64,000 nucleotides of DNA from Alphaproteobacteria bacterium (GTDB taxonomy: Bacteria > Pseudomonadota > Alphaproteobacteria > CAAGCB01 > CAG-977), in contig JAFZYY010000024.1 of the NCBI GenBank assembly GCA_017616015.1, positions 1 to 64,000 of the forward strand. Direction: 5' to 3'. How positions within the stretch are numbered: position 1 is the stretch's first letter; each line of letters opens with the position of its first letter. Positions 176 to 48,584 of this stretch are shown piece by piece. The notes beneath the pieces were generated by a model. The model had not been told where the DNA came from. It saw only the letters and a list, made by a program, of their open reading frames with translations, and searched no databases. Both the position numbers and the translations under genes were made by a program.

Positions 176-229
176 ATGCCAGAAAATTATCCTTTGATGA
201 CGGTTAAATAATTTGACTCTTAGATACGT

Positions 230-440
230 TTGAAATAACCTGATAACGCATCAGTTGATGACTGATGTGAGGTTTGAAACCCTCTTAATGGTTATCTGCT
301 ATCAGCAGATGTAAAAAGCTACCTTTTTGCCCGAAGGCAGGAAGGTAGCCAATAAGATGTTATAACATCAAATAAGCTACACTATTACCATTAATAGGTT
401 TCAACTTCCTGCCACCTTTCATCAAGGTGGCTTTTGTTTC
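230..440 (+). ncRNA. Structured RNA or regulated leader upstream of SHOCT genes
   Basis: This non-coding stretch carries a dense set of perfect helices. GATAAC (242-247) pairs with GTTATC (291-296), enclosing hairpin CATCAGT/ACTGATG (249-255/261-267). Next come ATCTGCT/AGCAGAT (294-300/304-310), GCTACCTT/AAGGTAGC (318-325/342-349) with inner TGCC/GGCA (328-331/336-339), and the 14-nt palindrome 356-369. The 17-mer at 397-413 is complementary in two contiguous halves to 274-281 and 336-344, so two mutually exclusive folds are possible, and its last three bases also belong to the terminator stem 411-431. That is the logic of an attenuator or switch. It matches no RNA family I recognise. Confidence 0.5.
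411..439 (+). terminator. Intrinsic terminator of the structured RNA
   Basis: Perfect 8-bp stem GCCACCTT (411-418) / AAGGTGGC (424-431) with a 5-nt loop, followed by TTTTGTTT. It lies 22 bp before the start of the first SHOCT gene, so it either ends a separate small RNA or attenuates the downstream genes. Confidence 0.7.
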
Positions 441-461: not shown

Positions 462-923
462 ATGGATTTGGAAGAACTGGAAAAATTACATGAACTGAAA
501 GAAAAAGGCATTCTTTCGGCGGAAGAATTTGAACAAAAGAAAGCGGATTTGCTGAATGAGAATAAAGCGGCACAAACAACTACTTTCAAAAAAGGAATAA
601 ACTGGAAAAATGTCGGATTATCTTTTTCATTTTCTTTGTTATATTTCATTATACTTATTGTTATTGGTATCATTATCGCTTACATCGCAGATAATATAAC
701 AGATAAAGAATTAGAACTTATAGGTAAATTTTTAAACCTTATCTCCGGCATCATACTAGCTTTTATCGCAAAGAAATTAAATACATCTCAGTATGAAAAA
801 TGCGCGCCTATTTGGGGGATAATTGTTGGTATGTTATTAGTAGGACCGTTAGGTTTCTGGATTGTAACATATCAATTTTTACAAGTAAAACAGGGACATG
901 CAGTATTAAAAACAAAACAATAA
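462..923 (+). CDS. Membrane protein with N-terminal SHOCT domain
   Basis: A 153-residue protein. Residues 1-32 form a SHOCT-type helical hairpin (LEELEKLHELKEKGILSAEE, then FEQKKADLL), a short module that usually sits at the C-terminus of other proteins and is thought to mediate oligomerisation or binding. It is followed by three hydrophobic segments at about 52-76, 88-106 and 115-138, so the protein should be membrane-embedded. The start ATG has a good GGAGG site (451-455). It lies just after a structured RNA with a terminator and 61 bp before a second SHOCT membrane protein, with which it probably forms an operon. The SHOCT call is secure; the function is unknown. Confidence 0.75.
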   Translation: MDLEELEKLHELKEKGILSAEEFEQKKADLLNENKAAQTTTFKKGINWKNVGLSFSFSLLYFIILIVIGIIIAYIADNITDKELELIGKFLNLISGIILAFIAKKLNTSQYEKCAPIWGIIVGMLLVGPLGFWIVTYQFLQVKQGHAVLKTKQ

Positions 924-2642: not shown

Positions 2643-3575
2643 ATGAATAATGAATCGGTCAATAAAAACTTTCTTCTTGCTCATGCAAAGCCTGTTTTGA
2701 AATGGGCGGGCGGCAAGGGTATGTTATTGCCGGAAATTACGAAACATTTGCCCGCAAAATTAAAAGGCGGCGCCGTGAAACGTTATATTGAACCGTTTGT
2801 GGGCGGCGGCGCCGTTTTCTTTGAACTGGCGGGGAATTATCTTTTTAAAGACGCTTATTTGTTCGATGTCAATCCCGAGTTGGTCATTCTTTATAACGTG
2901 ATTAAAAATAACGTTGAAGAGCTGATAGCCGAATTGTCTGTTTTACAGCAATCTTATAATAAATCGCCGGATAAAAAGGTGTTTTATTACGCTGTCCGGG
3001 ACGAATATAACCGATTTGATAAAAATGTGGAAGCAAACAAGCATACGCCGGATTTTATCAGACGCGCGGCATTGACGATTTGTCTGAACCGTACCTGTTT
3101 CAACGGATTGTTCAGAGTAAATTCAAAAGGGCTGTTTAACGTGCCCGTCGGAAAATATAAAAACCCGCGGATTTTAGATGAAAACAACTTAAGATCAGTA
3201 TCAAAAGCATTGCAATGCGCCACAATATTGCAAACGGATTTTGAAACCGTTTTGAGTTATATCAATCCGGATACTTTTGTTTATTATGATCCTCCGTATC
3301 GTCCGATTAATGCCGGTTCGTTTAATTCTTACGCGGTGGGCGATTTTAATGACGATGAACAAAGACGCCTGAAAGATACTTTTGACAAAGCAAACGAAGC
3401 CGGCGCTTTGCAAATGCTCAGTAATTCCGATCCGACCAATTATAATCCCGAAGACATGTTCTTTGACAGGTTGTACCGTGATTATAAAATTCATCGGATT
3501 TGGGCAAAAAGAATGATTAATTCCGATCCTGACGGTCGAAACGGTGTAAGAGAACTTTTAATCACGAATTATTGA
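2643..3575 (+). CDS. dpnM: Dam-type DNA adenine methyltransferase (DpnM/DpnIIA class)
   Basis: A 310-residue alpha-class N6-adenine methyltransferase that protects GATC sites. The SAM-binding motif comes first (LKWAGGKG near residue 20, then [13 protein letters not shown]), followed by the target-recognition region and catalytic YYDPPY near residue 220, the Dam/DpnM order. It is the first gene of a three-gene DpnII-like operon: the second methylase starts 2 bp after its stop and the endonuclease follows that with a 4-bp overlap. Such systems use this enzyme for double-stranded DNA and the second enzyme for single-stranded or hemimethylated DNA. GATC specificity is inferred from family and context. 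Confidence 0.92.
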
Positions 3576-3577
3576 AT

Positions 3578-4363
3578 ATGGAAGAGCTTTATCATTTATA
3601 TTGCGCTGATTGTCTGAAGAAATTAAAAGATTTTCCCGAAAATACTTTTGATATGATTTTTGCCGATCCTCCTTATTTGCTTTCCAACGGGGGAATCAGC
3701 TGCCAAAACGGACGCGTTGTATCCGTCAATAAAGGAAAATGGGACGAAAGCAAAGGGATAAAAGAAGATTTTAATTTTCATAAAAAATGGTTGGAGGCTT
3801 GTAAAAGAGTCCTTAAACAGAACGGGACTTTGTGGGTGTCCGGAACGTATCACAGTATCTATCAATGCGGCTTTGCCATGCAGTTGTTGGGCTATCAGAT
3901 TTTGAACGATATTGCGTGGTTTAAACCGAATGCCAGTCCGAATATGTCGTGCCGCTGTTTCACGGCCAGTCATGAAACTTTGATTTGGGCGAAAAAAGAT
4001 AAAAAATCCCGTCATTATTTCAATTATGATTTGATGAAAAACGGTGATTTTCCAAAAGATTTTATTAAAAAGCCTCATACGCAAATGCGCAGCGTATGGG
4101 CGATCGGAACGACCGCGCCGAAAGAAAAAGTTTTTGGCAAACATCCAACGCAAAAACCTTTGGAATTATTGGAAAGGATTATTCTTGCTTCGACAAAGGA
4201 AAACGATTTGATTTTAGATCCGTTTACGGGCAGCGGCACGACCGGTGTTGCAGCCGTTAAGCTGGGGCGTCGCTTTGTCGGTATTGAACAAAATCCGGAA
4301 TATGCGGCGTTGGCGGGTAAAAGAATTGACGATGCGTATCAACATAGGGAAAATCAGCAATGA
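3578..4363 (+). CDS. dpnA: DpnA-type beta-class adenine methyltransferase
   Basis: A 261-residue beta-class DNA adenine methyltransferase: catalytic FADPPY near residue 29, and the SAM-binding [10 protein letters not shown] together with HPTQKPLEL near the C-terminus. This matches DpnA/MboIB, the second methylase of DpnII systems, which can methylate GATC in single-stranded DNA. The ATG at 3578 is preferred; an in-frame TTG at 3572 would overlap the upstream stop. The 3' end overlaps the endonuclease gene as ATGA (4360-4363), indicating translational coupling. Confidence 0.9.
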
Positions 4364-5259
4364 AAAACAATCCCGTTTTTAAAAGGATTTTAAACTGCGG
4401 CAGCGATGATGAAGTTTTTTCATATTTAATCGGCAGTCTGAAAGAAACGATCAAATCCTGGGACTATTTTGTGAATTGGAATAAAGTTATTCATAACTAT
4501 CGCGACGTTGAAAGGTCGCTGAATTTGCTCAATACTCTGGTCGGTAAAAAAAACATTGAAGAAGAAGCGTTGGCGTTGCTGACGGATTATCCTCAGATTG
4601 TCGGAGTTATTCCCGCATTATTGGCTGAAAGAGAAAAGAAAATCAGCCTCTTGGTTGCTCCGGACAACTTTAACGCAAGACGGTTTGATTTTTCAAAGCC
4701 CTTGCCGGCAAAGGACGGTGTTTTGTTTTTGAAAGAAAGCGGCTTTTTAAAGCTTCTTTTGAACCGCAATATTAAATCCGTTCCGGATTATTTCATTGGC
4801 GTTGAGGTCGGGCTTGATTCCAACGGCCGCAAAAATCGCAGCGGTACAGCTATGGAAAATTTAGTCGAATTCTTTGTAAAAGATATTTGTGAAAGAAACG
4901 GATACGAATATATCGCTCAGGCAACCGCAAATAAAATCAAAGCCAAATGGAATAAGGAAATCACAGTTAAAAAATCATCTAAAAGAATTGATTTCGCCAT
5001 CAATACGCCGCATAAACTTTACCTGATTGAAACAAATTTTTACGGTGGCGGCGGTTCGAAATTGAAGTCAACCGCAGGCGAGTATGCCGATATTTATCGC
5101 CAGTGGACTGAAGACGGGCACCAGTTTATTTGGGTGACGGACGGTTATGGTTGGAAAACGACGCAGCGTCCGTTGCGCGATACGTTCAATACAACGGACT
5201 ATATCATCAACATTGATATGATTCAGAAAGGTATCTTGGAAGAAGTGCTTAAGGATTAA
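4360..5259 (+). CDS. dpnB: DpnII/MboI-type restriction endonuclease
   Basis: A 299-residue homologue of the DpnII family, whose members cut unmethylated GATC. The N-terminal half has the family pattern [21 protein letters not shown] and a helical region ending [14 protein letters not shown]. The C-terminal half has the catalytic-looking core [20 protein letters not shown], an E-x-N variant of a PD-(D/E)XK centre, followed by an [10 protein letters not shown] strand. It overlaps the preceding methylase by 4 bp, so nuclease synthesis is tied to prior methylase translation. The system looks complete and unbroken. Confidence 0.9.
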
Positions 5260-6624: not shown

Positions 6625-8862
6625 ATGAACAAGTATCTTTCAGAAAATCAGGAATTGATGCAAGAGTGGGATTGGGAGGCTAATGCCGATTTAGATCCCG
6701 CAAAAATAACGTACGGAAGTGAAAAAAAGGTATGGTGGAAATGCCCTAAATGTCTTGGAAAATGGCAGGCAGCCGTATGTGATCGGACAAGAAAAGATAA
6801 GACAGGGTGTCCATATTGTGCCGGTAGAAAAGTTCTTCCCGGGTTTAATGATTTAGCGACAATAAATCCCCGTTTGGCAACAGAATGGCATCCGGCGAAA
6901 AATGGTGATCTGAAGGCAACGGATGTTACTGTGGGTAGTCATAGGAAAGTATGGTGGAAATGTTCATGTGGCTATGAATGGGAAACACCAATAGCAGATA
7001 GAGCATGGAATCATAATGGGTGTCCTGCCTGCTCAAATAAGGTTTGTATTCCCGGAAGGAATGATTTGGCGACAACTAATCCAAATTTAGCGGATGAATG
7101 GCATAAGACAAAAAATGGCGATTTAAAGCCAACAGATGTTGTTGCAGGCAGTGGCAAAAAAGTATGGTGGAAATGTTCTAGATGCGAATATGAATGGAAA
7201 ACAGTAGTGGTATCCAGAGGAGTGTATCATCACGGTTGTCCTAAATGCTCAAAAATCCAAGGAGTGAAAACACTTACAAAATTTCATGTTAAACGGAAAG
7301 GTTCTCTTGCTGAAAATATGCCAGAATTGGCAAAAGAATGGCACCCAACGAAAAACGGTGATTTAACGCCTGATGATATAACAGCAAGTAGCAATAAAAA
7401 AGTATGGTGGAAGTGTCCACTTGGACATGAATATCAAGCCAGTATTGCCAATAGAAGGCGTACAAATTGTCCGATTTGTAATTTAAGAAAAGCGACATCA
7501 TTTCCGGAACAGGCTCTTTTCTATTATATAAAAAAGTTTTGGCCGGATTCGCTGAATAAATATAAAGATTATTTTAAGCGTGGTATGGAATTCGATATTT
7601 ATATTCCGGAACTGAAAACCGCCATTGAATATGACGGGATACAATGGCATAAAACAATTTCTCAACATATAAAAGAAATTAAAAAATACGAATTCTGCAA
7701 AAAGCATAAAATTCATCTGATTCGCGTTAAAGAACACAGAGAAGGCTCTTGGAATAACACAGCGGACGAAATTTATTATATTCCTGTAATGGATAAAAGA
7801 AATTTTCACGCGTTAGAAAAAGTGATATATCGTCTCTTGACTTCAATGGGAGGTCTGCTTCCTTCCCGTGAAAAAATCAATATAGAAAAAGATAAAAACG
7901 AAATACTGCAATATCTTTCAAAAATGGATAATTCCCTTGCGGATATACGACCTGATGTGGCCGCAAAATGGAACTATGAAAAAAATGGCAATTTAACACC
8001 GAATATGTTCACAGTAAGTTCAAATGAAATCGTTTGGTGGAAATGCCCAGATTGCGGAAAGGAATGGAAAACAAGTATAGCCACAATGACGGTAGAAGTT
8101 TATGGTTGCCCCGAATGTTCAAAAAATAAAAAGGGAAAAACAATTACAAAATTTCATGTTGAACAGAAGGGCTCTCTTGCTGAAAAAGAGCCAGAATTAG
8201 CAAAAGAATGGCACCCAACGAAAAATGGTGATCTGACACCCGCAGACGTTACTGCAGGCAGTGCCAAAAAAGTTTGGTGGTTATGTTTAAAATGTAGTCA
8301 TGAATGGCAAACAACAGTAGAAGCCAGAGGATTGAAGCATCAGGGTTGTCCTGTTTGTTCAAATCGGGCTTGTGTTTCCGGAAAAAACGATTTGATGACG
8401 ACTGATCCTGAATTAGCAAAAGAGTGGCATCCGACAAAAAACGGTAATTTAAAATCGACGGATGTTGTTGCAGGCAGCGGGAGAAAAGTTTGGTGGTTAT
8501 GTCCGAACTGTGGTTATGAATGGCAGGCGGTAGTAGTAGCCAGAGGGGTATATCATCGCGGTTGCCCTGAATGTTCAAAAATTCAAAAAGGAAAAGCAAT
8601 TACAAAACGGCTTGTTCAACAGCAAGGCTCGCTTGCTGAAAAAATGCCCGAATTGGCACCAGAATGGCACCCGACAAAGAACGGAGATTTAACACCTTAT
8701 GATATAACGGTGGGAAGTCATCAGAAGGTTTGGTGGAAGTGTTTGAAATGCGGTTATGAATGGCAAGCCGTTGTTCGGGAAAGGGTAAAAGGATTCTGTA
8801 AATGTCCGCATTGTTCTAAAAAAGGAAAAACAGGACAGTTGAATTTTGATTTTATGAAATAA
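6625..8862 (+). CDS. Eight-repeat zinc-ribbon protein with central PD-(D/E)XK nuclease-like domain
   Basis: A 745-residue mosaic. Eight roughly 70-residue units start near residues 4, 78, 149, 229, 438, 518, 590 and 670. Each has a variant of L-A-x-E-W-H-P-T-K-N-G-D-L, then KVWWKC, a CxxC (or CPLGH in unit 4) and a second CPxC, so each should bind one zinc ion; this matches the DUF4379-type zinc-ribbon repeat. Between units 4 and 5 (about 290-435) is a nuclease-like core: MEFDIYIPELKTAIEYDGIQWH supplies the acidic D and E residues of a PD-(D/E)XK or Vsr-like site, then KIHLIRVKE. Repeats probably grip DNA or RNA on both sides of the core. A bidirectional terminator follows. Biological role unknown. 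Confidence 0.85.
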   Translation: MNKYLSENQELMQEWDWEANADLDPAKITYGSEKKVWWKCPKCLGKWQAAVCDRTRKDKTGCPYCAGRKVLPGFNDLATINPRLATEWHPAKNGDLKATDVTVGSHRKVWWKCSCGYEWETPIADRAWNHNGCPACSNKVCIPGRNDLATTNPNLADEWHKTKNGDLKPTDVVAGSGKKVWWKCSRCEYEWKTVVVSRGVYHHGCPKCSKIQGVKTLTKFHVKRKGSLAENMPELAKEWHPTKNGDLTPDDITASSNKKVWWKCPLGHEYQASIANRRRTNCPICNLRKATSFPEQALFYYIKKFWPDSLNKYKDYFKRGMEFDIYIPELKTAIEYDGIQWHKTISQHIKEIKKYEFCKKHKIHLIRVKEHREGSWNNTADEIYYIPVMDKRNFHALEKVIYRLLTSMGGLLPSREKINIEKDKNEILQYLSKMDNSLADIRPDVAAKWNYEKNGNLTPNMFTVSSNEIVWWKCPDCGKEWKTSIATMTVEVYGCPECSKNKKGKTITKFHVEQKGSLAEKEPELAKEWHPTKNGDLTPADVTAGSAKKVWWLCLKCSHEWQTTVEARGLKHQGCPVCSNRACVSGKNDLMTTDPELAKEWHPTKNGNLKSTDVVAGSGRKVWWLCPNCGYEWQAVVVARGVYHRGCPECSKIQKGKAITKRLVQQQGSLAEKMPELAPEWHPTKNGDLTPYDITVGSHQKVWWKCLKCGYEWQAVVRERVKGFCKCPHCSKKGKTGQLNFDFMK

Positions 8863-48289: not shown

Positions 48290-48384
48290 CTTCGTCCCTA
48301 CACCAAACCACAGTTACACACACACAATAATGTATAACATAACGAACATAAAAAAATTCTTAACGAAAATTCATTTTATAGGTC

Positions 48385-48456
48385 AATCGGTTCGTTGACT
48401 GTGATGCTCGACTGCGCACGTACTTTTTGTACGCTTGCGCGTCTGCGCTTCTCGTC
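48385..48456. repeat. 72-bp intergenic repeat, copy 1
   Basis: Identical over 72 bp to 48495-48566, in the same orientation. The preceding 10-15 bp (ATTTTATAG) are also shared. It contains an imperfect inverted repeat, GCGC-A-CGTAC ... GTACG-CTT-GCGC around TTTTT, so it would fold as RNA or single-stranded DNA. Confidence 0.9.
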
Positions 48457-48494
48457 GCCTGCCGTTTGACACTCTAAAATGAATTTTATAGAGG

Positions 48495-48566
48495 AATCGG
48501 TTCGTTGACTGTGATGCTCGACTGCGCACGTACTTTTTGTACGCTTGCGCGTCTGCGCTTCTCGTC
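48495..48566. repeat. 72-bp intergenic repeat, copy 2
   Basis: Second exact copy, 110 bp downstream of the first. The interval 48290-48651 between fliF and flgE holds these repeats and the flgE terminator; no gene is supported in it. Confidence 0.9.
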
Positions 48567-48584
48567 ATTTCCTGTTTTTATGAT

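Follow-up and report, generated by a model that had tools for sequence, protein, structure and literature searches.

The window (the whole stretch of DNA that was analysed, 64,000 nucleotides) raises the question of what kind of RNA lies in front of a gene for a SHOCT-domain membrane protein near its start, and whether this RNA controls that gene. An initial annotation had pointed to a 17-mer at 397-413 (GGTTTCAACTTCCTGCC) that is perfectly complementary to two upstream segments and shares bases with an intrinsic terminator stem, and had proposed either two competing folds with terminator control or a structured small RNA, of a type that it could not assign.

Structure and position of the RNA

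Both complementarities are exact, 397-404 (GGTTTCAA) being the reverse complement of 274-281 (TTGAAACC) and 405-413 (CTTCCTGCC) that of 336-344 (GGCAGGAAG), while the terminator stem (411-416/426-431) indeed has 411-413 in common with the 17-mer. The further helices that had been noted within about 200 nt are also real (249-255/261-267, 269-272/281-284, 294-300/304-310, 356-360/365-369 and 382-386/393-397), as is a helix that includes G-U pairs (318-331/336-349). The predicted fold of 200-445 amounts to -87.0 kcal/mol, compared to -48.6 +/- 4.6 kcal/mol in dinucleotide shuffles (n = 200; z = -8.4), and not one of the 200 shuffles matched it. The proposed competition, in contrast, stands in a modified form: the two complements sit on different halves of the 17-mer and therefore do not compete with each other (the pairing 397-404/274-281 crosses 405-413/336-344 in the manner of a pseudoknot). 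The true competitors are 318-331 and 405-413 for strand 336-349, and the core stem and the terminator for 411-413.

Table 1. Features of the RNA and its surroundings in the window
Feature	Position	Strand	Remarks
Promoter-like sequence: -35 TTGACT (213-218), spacer of 17 nt, -10 TAACCT (236-241)	213-241	+	
5' hairpin H1	249-267	+	7 of 7 pairs with two-sided changes
Hairpin HP2, with UNR-type loop; first part of target	269-284	+	stem nearly invariant
Target: HP2 loop (274-280) and next strand (285-292)	274-292	+	fits own antisense (387-404), not those of other loci
Variable spacer hairpin	294-310	+	perfect 7-bp helix; sequence differs among homologues
Decoy strand A', partner of 336-349 (strand A)	318-331	+	14 pairs, 98.8% paired, 5 two-sided
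C4-type core, three helices	336-413	+	covarying pairs; weak RF02221 match
Core stem P3a	336-344/405-413	+	pairs 98-100% kept, two-sided changes
P3b of core	345-349/376-380	+	pairs 98-100% kept, two-sided changes
Inner hairpin of core	356-369	+	
Hairpin P4 of core	382-397	+	
Antisense: P4 loop (387-394) and strand 398-404	387-404	+	private match to 274-292
Intrinsic terminator: stem 411-416/426-431, T-run 432-435	411-435	+	stem covaries; 411-413 also in core stem
SHOCT-domain membrane protein, presumed controlled gene	462-923	+	PF09851

The -35 hexamer is found at identical spacing, and is invariant, in the four closest homologues, and base preferences resembling -35 and -10 elements recur at a fixed distance 5' of the RNA (133 loci); transcription is inferred to start near 248. 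The loop of HP2 reads UNR at its positions 3-5 in 128 of 136 loci. The H1 loop (UGAUG, 256-260) is complementary to the terminator loop (CAUCA, 420-424), and the UGAU and AUCA of these loops are invariant both in 7 and in 13 close homologues; a kissing interaction between them was nevertheless left out of the claim, several distant loci being without the complement when inspected by eye.

The Rfam search proposed in the initial annotation returned no family at its own cut-off anywhere in the window. The best match below cut-off is to RF02221 (sRNA-Xcc1), at 336-421 with 27.5 bits (cut-off 53; E = 0.0057 in 261 bases), which is also the sole Rfam match with E < 1 in the region, whereas RF01695 (C4; cut-off 45 bits) gave no match in the window, and none in the region even at E = 10. 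The RNA is thus outside both families as Rfam defines them. Similarity searches with the DNA found no second near copy in the window or in its genome, for which reason a repeated mobile DNA was rejected as an explanation; the additional copies in this genome were detected only by structure. What matched the RNA in collections of phages and of plasmids was short and due to chance.

Elsewhere in the window lie a protein fusing a BRO-N domain to a Fic domain (1518-2414), a DpnII-type restriction-modification set (2643-5259; D12 adenine methylase, N6/N4 methylase and DpnII-family endonuclease), a 745-aa protein with repeated zinc-ribbon-like units (W-W-K-C...C) flanking a possible nuclease-fold segment (6625-8862), and two 102-nt tandem units, 90% identical, between two ORFs resembling flagellar genes (48366-48577).

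Two covarying folds and a private address

DNA searches yielded a copy that is 76% identical, from another family of the same class, and later copies of 80-88% identity as well as divergent ones (two matches from the first searches, L015 and L050, were chance matches). The four closest homologues have the RNA in common, while the genes 3' of it differ (a SHOCT protein, an outer-membrane protein and two lipoprotein-like proteins). A hand-made structure of 7 sequences holds 46 pairs, of which 94.1% are paired and 21 show two-sided changes, and the covariation is far above that in shuffles and slid controls, none of which came close. Covariation in homologues, another of the checks that had been proposed, is therefore present. 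A covariance model built from these 7 sequences (R1) detected the RNA in 10 of the 12 genomes of the window's own family and in at least 26 out of 385 from the class, where a genome often has more than one copy. In total, 136 related loci were collected, mostly from gut and rumen Alphaproteobacteria and for the majority from metagenome-assembled genomes.

In an alignment of 13 close homologues, the fold that combines H1, target:antisense, the A':A hairpin and the full terminator (fold 1) has 23 pairs with two-sided changes, and the fold made up of H1, HP2, the core stem, P3b and P4 (fold 2) has 14, with strand A changing together with each of its two partners. In 122 of the 136 loci, three or more of the four final nucleotides of the core stem are also part of the terminator hairpin, so that the two folds are mutually exclusive at the terminator base. 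Two mutually exclusive folds that both covary thus do exist, and together with this overlap they support the terminator control that had been suggested. Fold 1 is favoured by a median of 12 kcal/mol, which is an equilibrium estimate that ignores pseudoknots and the co-transcriptional order of folding. When the target is blocked, the predicted mean probability of the core stem rises from 0.03 to 0.35 at full length, and to 0.54 before the terminator is made (again at equilibrium and pseudoknot-free). Two RNAs in tandem, with a terminator-like hairpin on each, occur at L065:1216-1675 and L125:1073-1466.

In almost every locus the equivalent of 387-404 is complementary to the equivalent of 274-292, with differing letters, even though the model with which the loci were found and aligned contained no target:antisense pairs. 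Duplex energies were calculated for every target with every antisense and compared over 10,000 permutations. For 59 loci the mean self energy is -17.3 kcal/mol, compared to a permuted mean of -7.2 and a best permutation of -8.6 kcal/mol, and self is the best among dissimilar partners in 51. Without three loci whose target was misaligned or unrecognised (L071, L135 and L136), the remaining 56 give -18.0 versus -7.4 kcal/mol (best permutation -8.9), and within single genomes of this set self is best in 48 of 49 cases. A second set, 80 loci pulled from named genome contigs via a short 3' pattern, behaves likewise (-16.8 versus -6.8 kcal/mol, best permutation -8.0; self best in 78). The rumen metagenome-assembled genome RGIG4773 carries at least 13 copies, and self is best in 12. 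One copy, L222:5461-5641, has a mismatched target and antisense (-3.9 kcal/mol) with no fitting partner among the loci examined, and is perhaps a recombinant.

The address columns are 0.59-0.64 identical in the 13 close homologues, versus 0.95-1.00 in the HP2 and P4 stems; two parts of the spacer are as variable as the address. At L203 the RNA and the SHOCT gene behind it are both homologous to those of the window, target and antisense having changed together (this locus is assigned to a distant organism, perhaps through misbinning). By sequence comparison, then, the layout, the covariation of both folds and the locus-private match are established. A private match would also be expected if pairing occurs in cis only.

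Downstream genes

The model match ends 24 nt 5' of the SHOCT start codon, and across the loci an ORF starts at a median of 26 nt after the RNA. An ORF start within 75 nt is also found at 388 of 680 random positions, though, which makes proximity alone weak evidence for control. The downstream genes are mainly envelope genes (outer-membrane proteins, lipoproteins, pilin-like and SHOCT proteins), and in the window's genome the genes behind further members encode an outer-membrane protein and lipoproteins, among others. The matches listed for the proteins behind 47 members include outer-membrane beta-barrels, surface antigens, HTH regulators and glycosyltransferases, and they contain no antirepressor family. 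In RGIG4773 nearly all copies (L171, L187, L192, L207, L209, L220, L221, L222, L225 and L232) precede pilin-like proteins that start with GRSMIEMLG, and almost all of their addresses are private. That the subfamily is phage-borne was considered and rejected: its 20-base 3' pattern occurs in more than 100 bacterial stretches versus 4 on viral contigs, and none of these 4 has the structure of the RNA.

Proposed mechanism and rival explanations

Following these results, the SHOCT gene at 462 is probably controlled by the RNA, as a leader-encoded antisense RNA of the C4/CI type, and it is likely that this control is exerted through transcription termination. As long as target and antisense are paired within one transcript (beginning near 248), decoy A' would hold strand A and the core would stay unclosed, which would allow the terminator to form and keep the gene off. 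Once the target:antisense pairing is lost, the core would close and capture three bases of the terminator stem, and read-through would be favoured. RNase P probably excises the core at G336, giving a small RNA of about 80-100 nt, and the released core may pair with the target on further transcripts from this locus, with an effect that could be up or down. For this last part, release of the core and its action in trans, we consider the chances to be even. Since an RNA that occupied the target in trans would leave the core in cis free to close, and so promote read-through, a simple negative feedback in the style of P4 is not implied by the energies. The structured small RNA, given as the other option in the initial annotation, may also be true, the core corresponding to the 88-nt sRNA-Xcc1 (PMC2996969).

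Whether the core has any role beyond its own transcript bears directly on an unlikely, but serious, alternative, namely that the RNA is a purely cis-acting attenuator descended from C4, in which all pairing takes place within one transcript and some input picks the fold. Pairing in cis explains all of the complementarity and comes out as the fold of lowest predicted energy at almost every locus, and the downstream target, which would imply trans or repeated use, is mostly missing: in the window its self energy is 3.0 kcal/mol weaker than the non-self mean, and over the whole set it is weakly significant (p = 0.013). On the other hand, the core retains the C4 architecture together with processing features, and in the case of its counterpart, sRNA-Xcc1, a separate RNA species accumulates (PMC2996969). 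The opposite possibility, a free-standing small RNA acting on other mRNAs with the SHOCT gene 3' of it by chance, would account for the RNA's own promoter-like sequence and terminator and for the discussion of sRNA-Xcc1 and its homologues as trans-acting sRNAs; yet the antisense is a far better fit to the leader in which it lies than to those at other loci, and the RNA keeps its SHOCT gene in a second genome despite a changed address, which renders this explanation highly improbable. Equally hard to believe is a riboswitch or protein-sensing leader with a common ligand. Several genes per genome stand behind similar leaders, the structure is strong and conserved and includes a terminator, and invariant unpaired bases are present in the close homologues, all of which would suit such a leader. 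While conserved unpaired bases thus exist across homologues, the matched target/antisense pair varies by locus, and it is because this private complementary pair, and not a shared pocket, lies at the centre of the structure that a riboswitch is not the first choice; the full architectural match to the C4 and Xcc1 leaders speaks against it as well.

Returning to the C4/CI-type leader, its layout is that of self-targeting antisense RNAs which serve immunity in some phages, and it looks like a phage control device has been reused for bacterial surface genes. More speculatively, and with considerable doubt, a phage-immunity RNA that has been domesticated in gut and rumen Alphaproteobacteria might work there as an addressable code, in which every member of large surface-gene families has a leader with its own target/antisense pair of ~13-16 nt, released cores set the expression of each gene (through dosage or on/off variation), and addresses change fast on a fixed chassis. 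If true, bacteria would have made a phage immunity RNA into a regulator of their envelope genes that is widespread and present in many copies, and more than 100 natural self-matched antisense pairs, apparently mutually orthogonal, would be at hand.

Comparison with sRNA-Xcc1, C4 and P4 CI

The one Rfam family with a weak match, sRNA-Xcc1, is an 88-nt RNA of Xanthomonas that was mapped by RACE and detected on Northern blots (PMC2996969), and that has been discussed as a virulence-linked trans-acting sRNA. Its length is that of the core, not of the whole leader, and the RF02221 model (87 positions) likewise has the start of the core stem as its first position. As in the window, the sRNA-Xcc1 loci have a matching upstream target hairpin, which is absent from the Rfam model, and loci with such a matching-loop hairpin occur across the phylum. 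In 20 of these loci (L082-L101) the antisense fits both its own upstream and its own downstream region (0 of 10,000 permutations each), the downstream match being at the ribosome site in the clearest cases; this second target is what the window does not have. Several sRNA-Xcc1 loci precede Rha, KilA-N or P22-type antirepressors, and a similar stretch lies directly 5' of an ant or KilA-N gene in the phages Aaphi23, Rac-SA53 and Acinetobacter phage 4316 (L153-L155). It seems that the Rfam sRNA-Xcc1 is the 3' half of a C4-type leader, a link that was not found in the open-access literature searched; in the Rfam output RF02221 is clan-less, whereas c4-2 (RF02944) is in CL00128. The prediction is that RF02221 should be grouped with the C4 families and spans just the 3' half of an element that is longer. 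sRNA-Xcc1 would gain a different, testable role, namely that of a leader RNA of the C4 type with its own operon as the target.

C4 of P1/P7 (RF01695) has, like the window, an upstream hairpin target with its following strand, a decoy region and a three-helix core, with the antisense formed by the last core hairpin loop and the strand after it. The closing stem, two inner hairpins and the single strand before the closing strand follow the same topology in both, as does a target complementary to the core and upstream of it; nine classical C4 loci have the layout of the sRNA-Xcc1 loci and, like them, both targets. RNase P cleaves C4 where its first stem begins, at the 5' end (PMC5320573). Of the 136 loci collected here, 135 have a G as the first base of the core and 93 have RCC after it, which is what would be expected of an RNase P substrate. 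The window differs from C4 in the presence of a terminator, the lack of a clear downstream ribosome-site target and of an RF01695 match, and in its position, since loci of its type stand mostly before envelope genes and C4 before an antirepressor operon. The predicted terminator mostly takes the place of C4's downstream target. Many chromosomal copies that differ in the specificity segment are also known for the C4-type sRNA group 1 of Acinetobacter baumannii, which, unlike the window RNA, match the Rfam C4 motif and for which the available part of the source describes no terminator-linked envelope-gene leaders (PMC5320573).

With the CI RNA of satellite phage P4, which acts on transcription termination via an upstream and a downstream site, the window shares a leader-internal antisense, a complementary upstream site and, by prediction, the link to termination, a likeness that follows the published description of CI RNA (PMC4825925). 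In the place of seqC, the downstream site of P4, there is an intrinsic terminator in the window, i.e. the upstream site is combined with a terminator and no P4-type downstream site is present. Given the layout shared with C4, with the sRNA-Xcc1 loci and with P4 CI, the stretch from 245 to 437 almost certainly has the layout of a C4/CI leader RNA, and the type that had been left unassigned can now be given as C4/CI-like.
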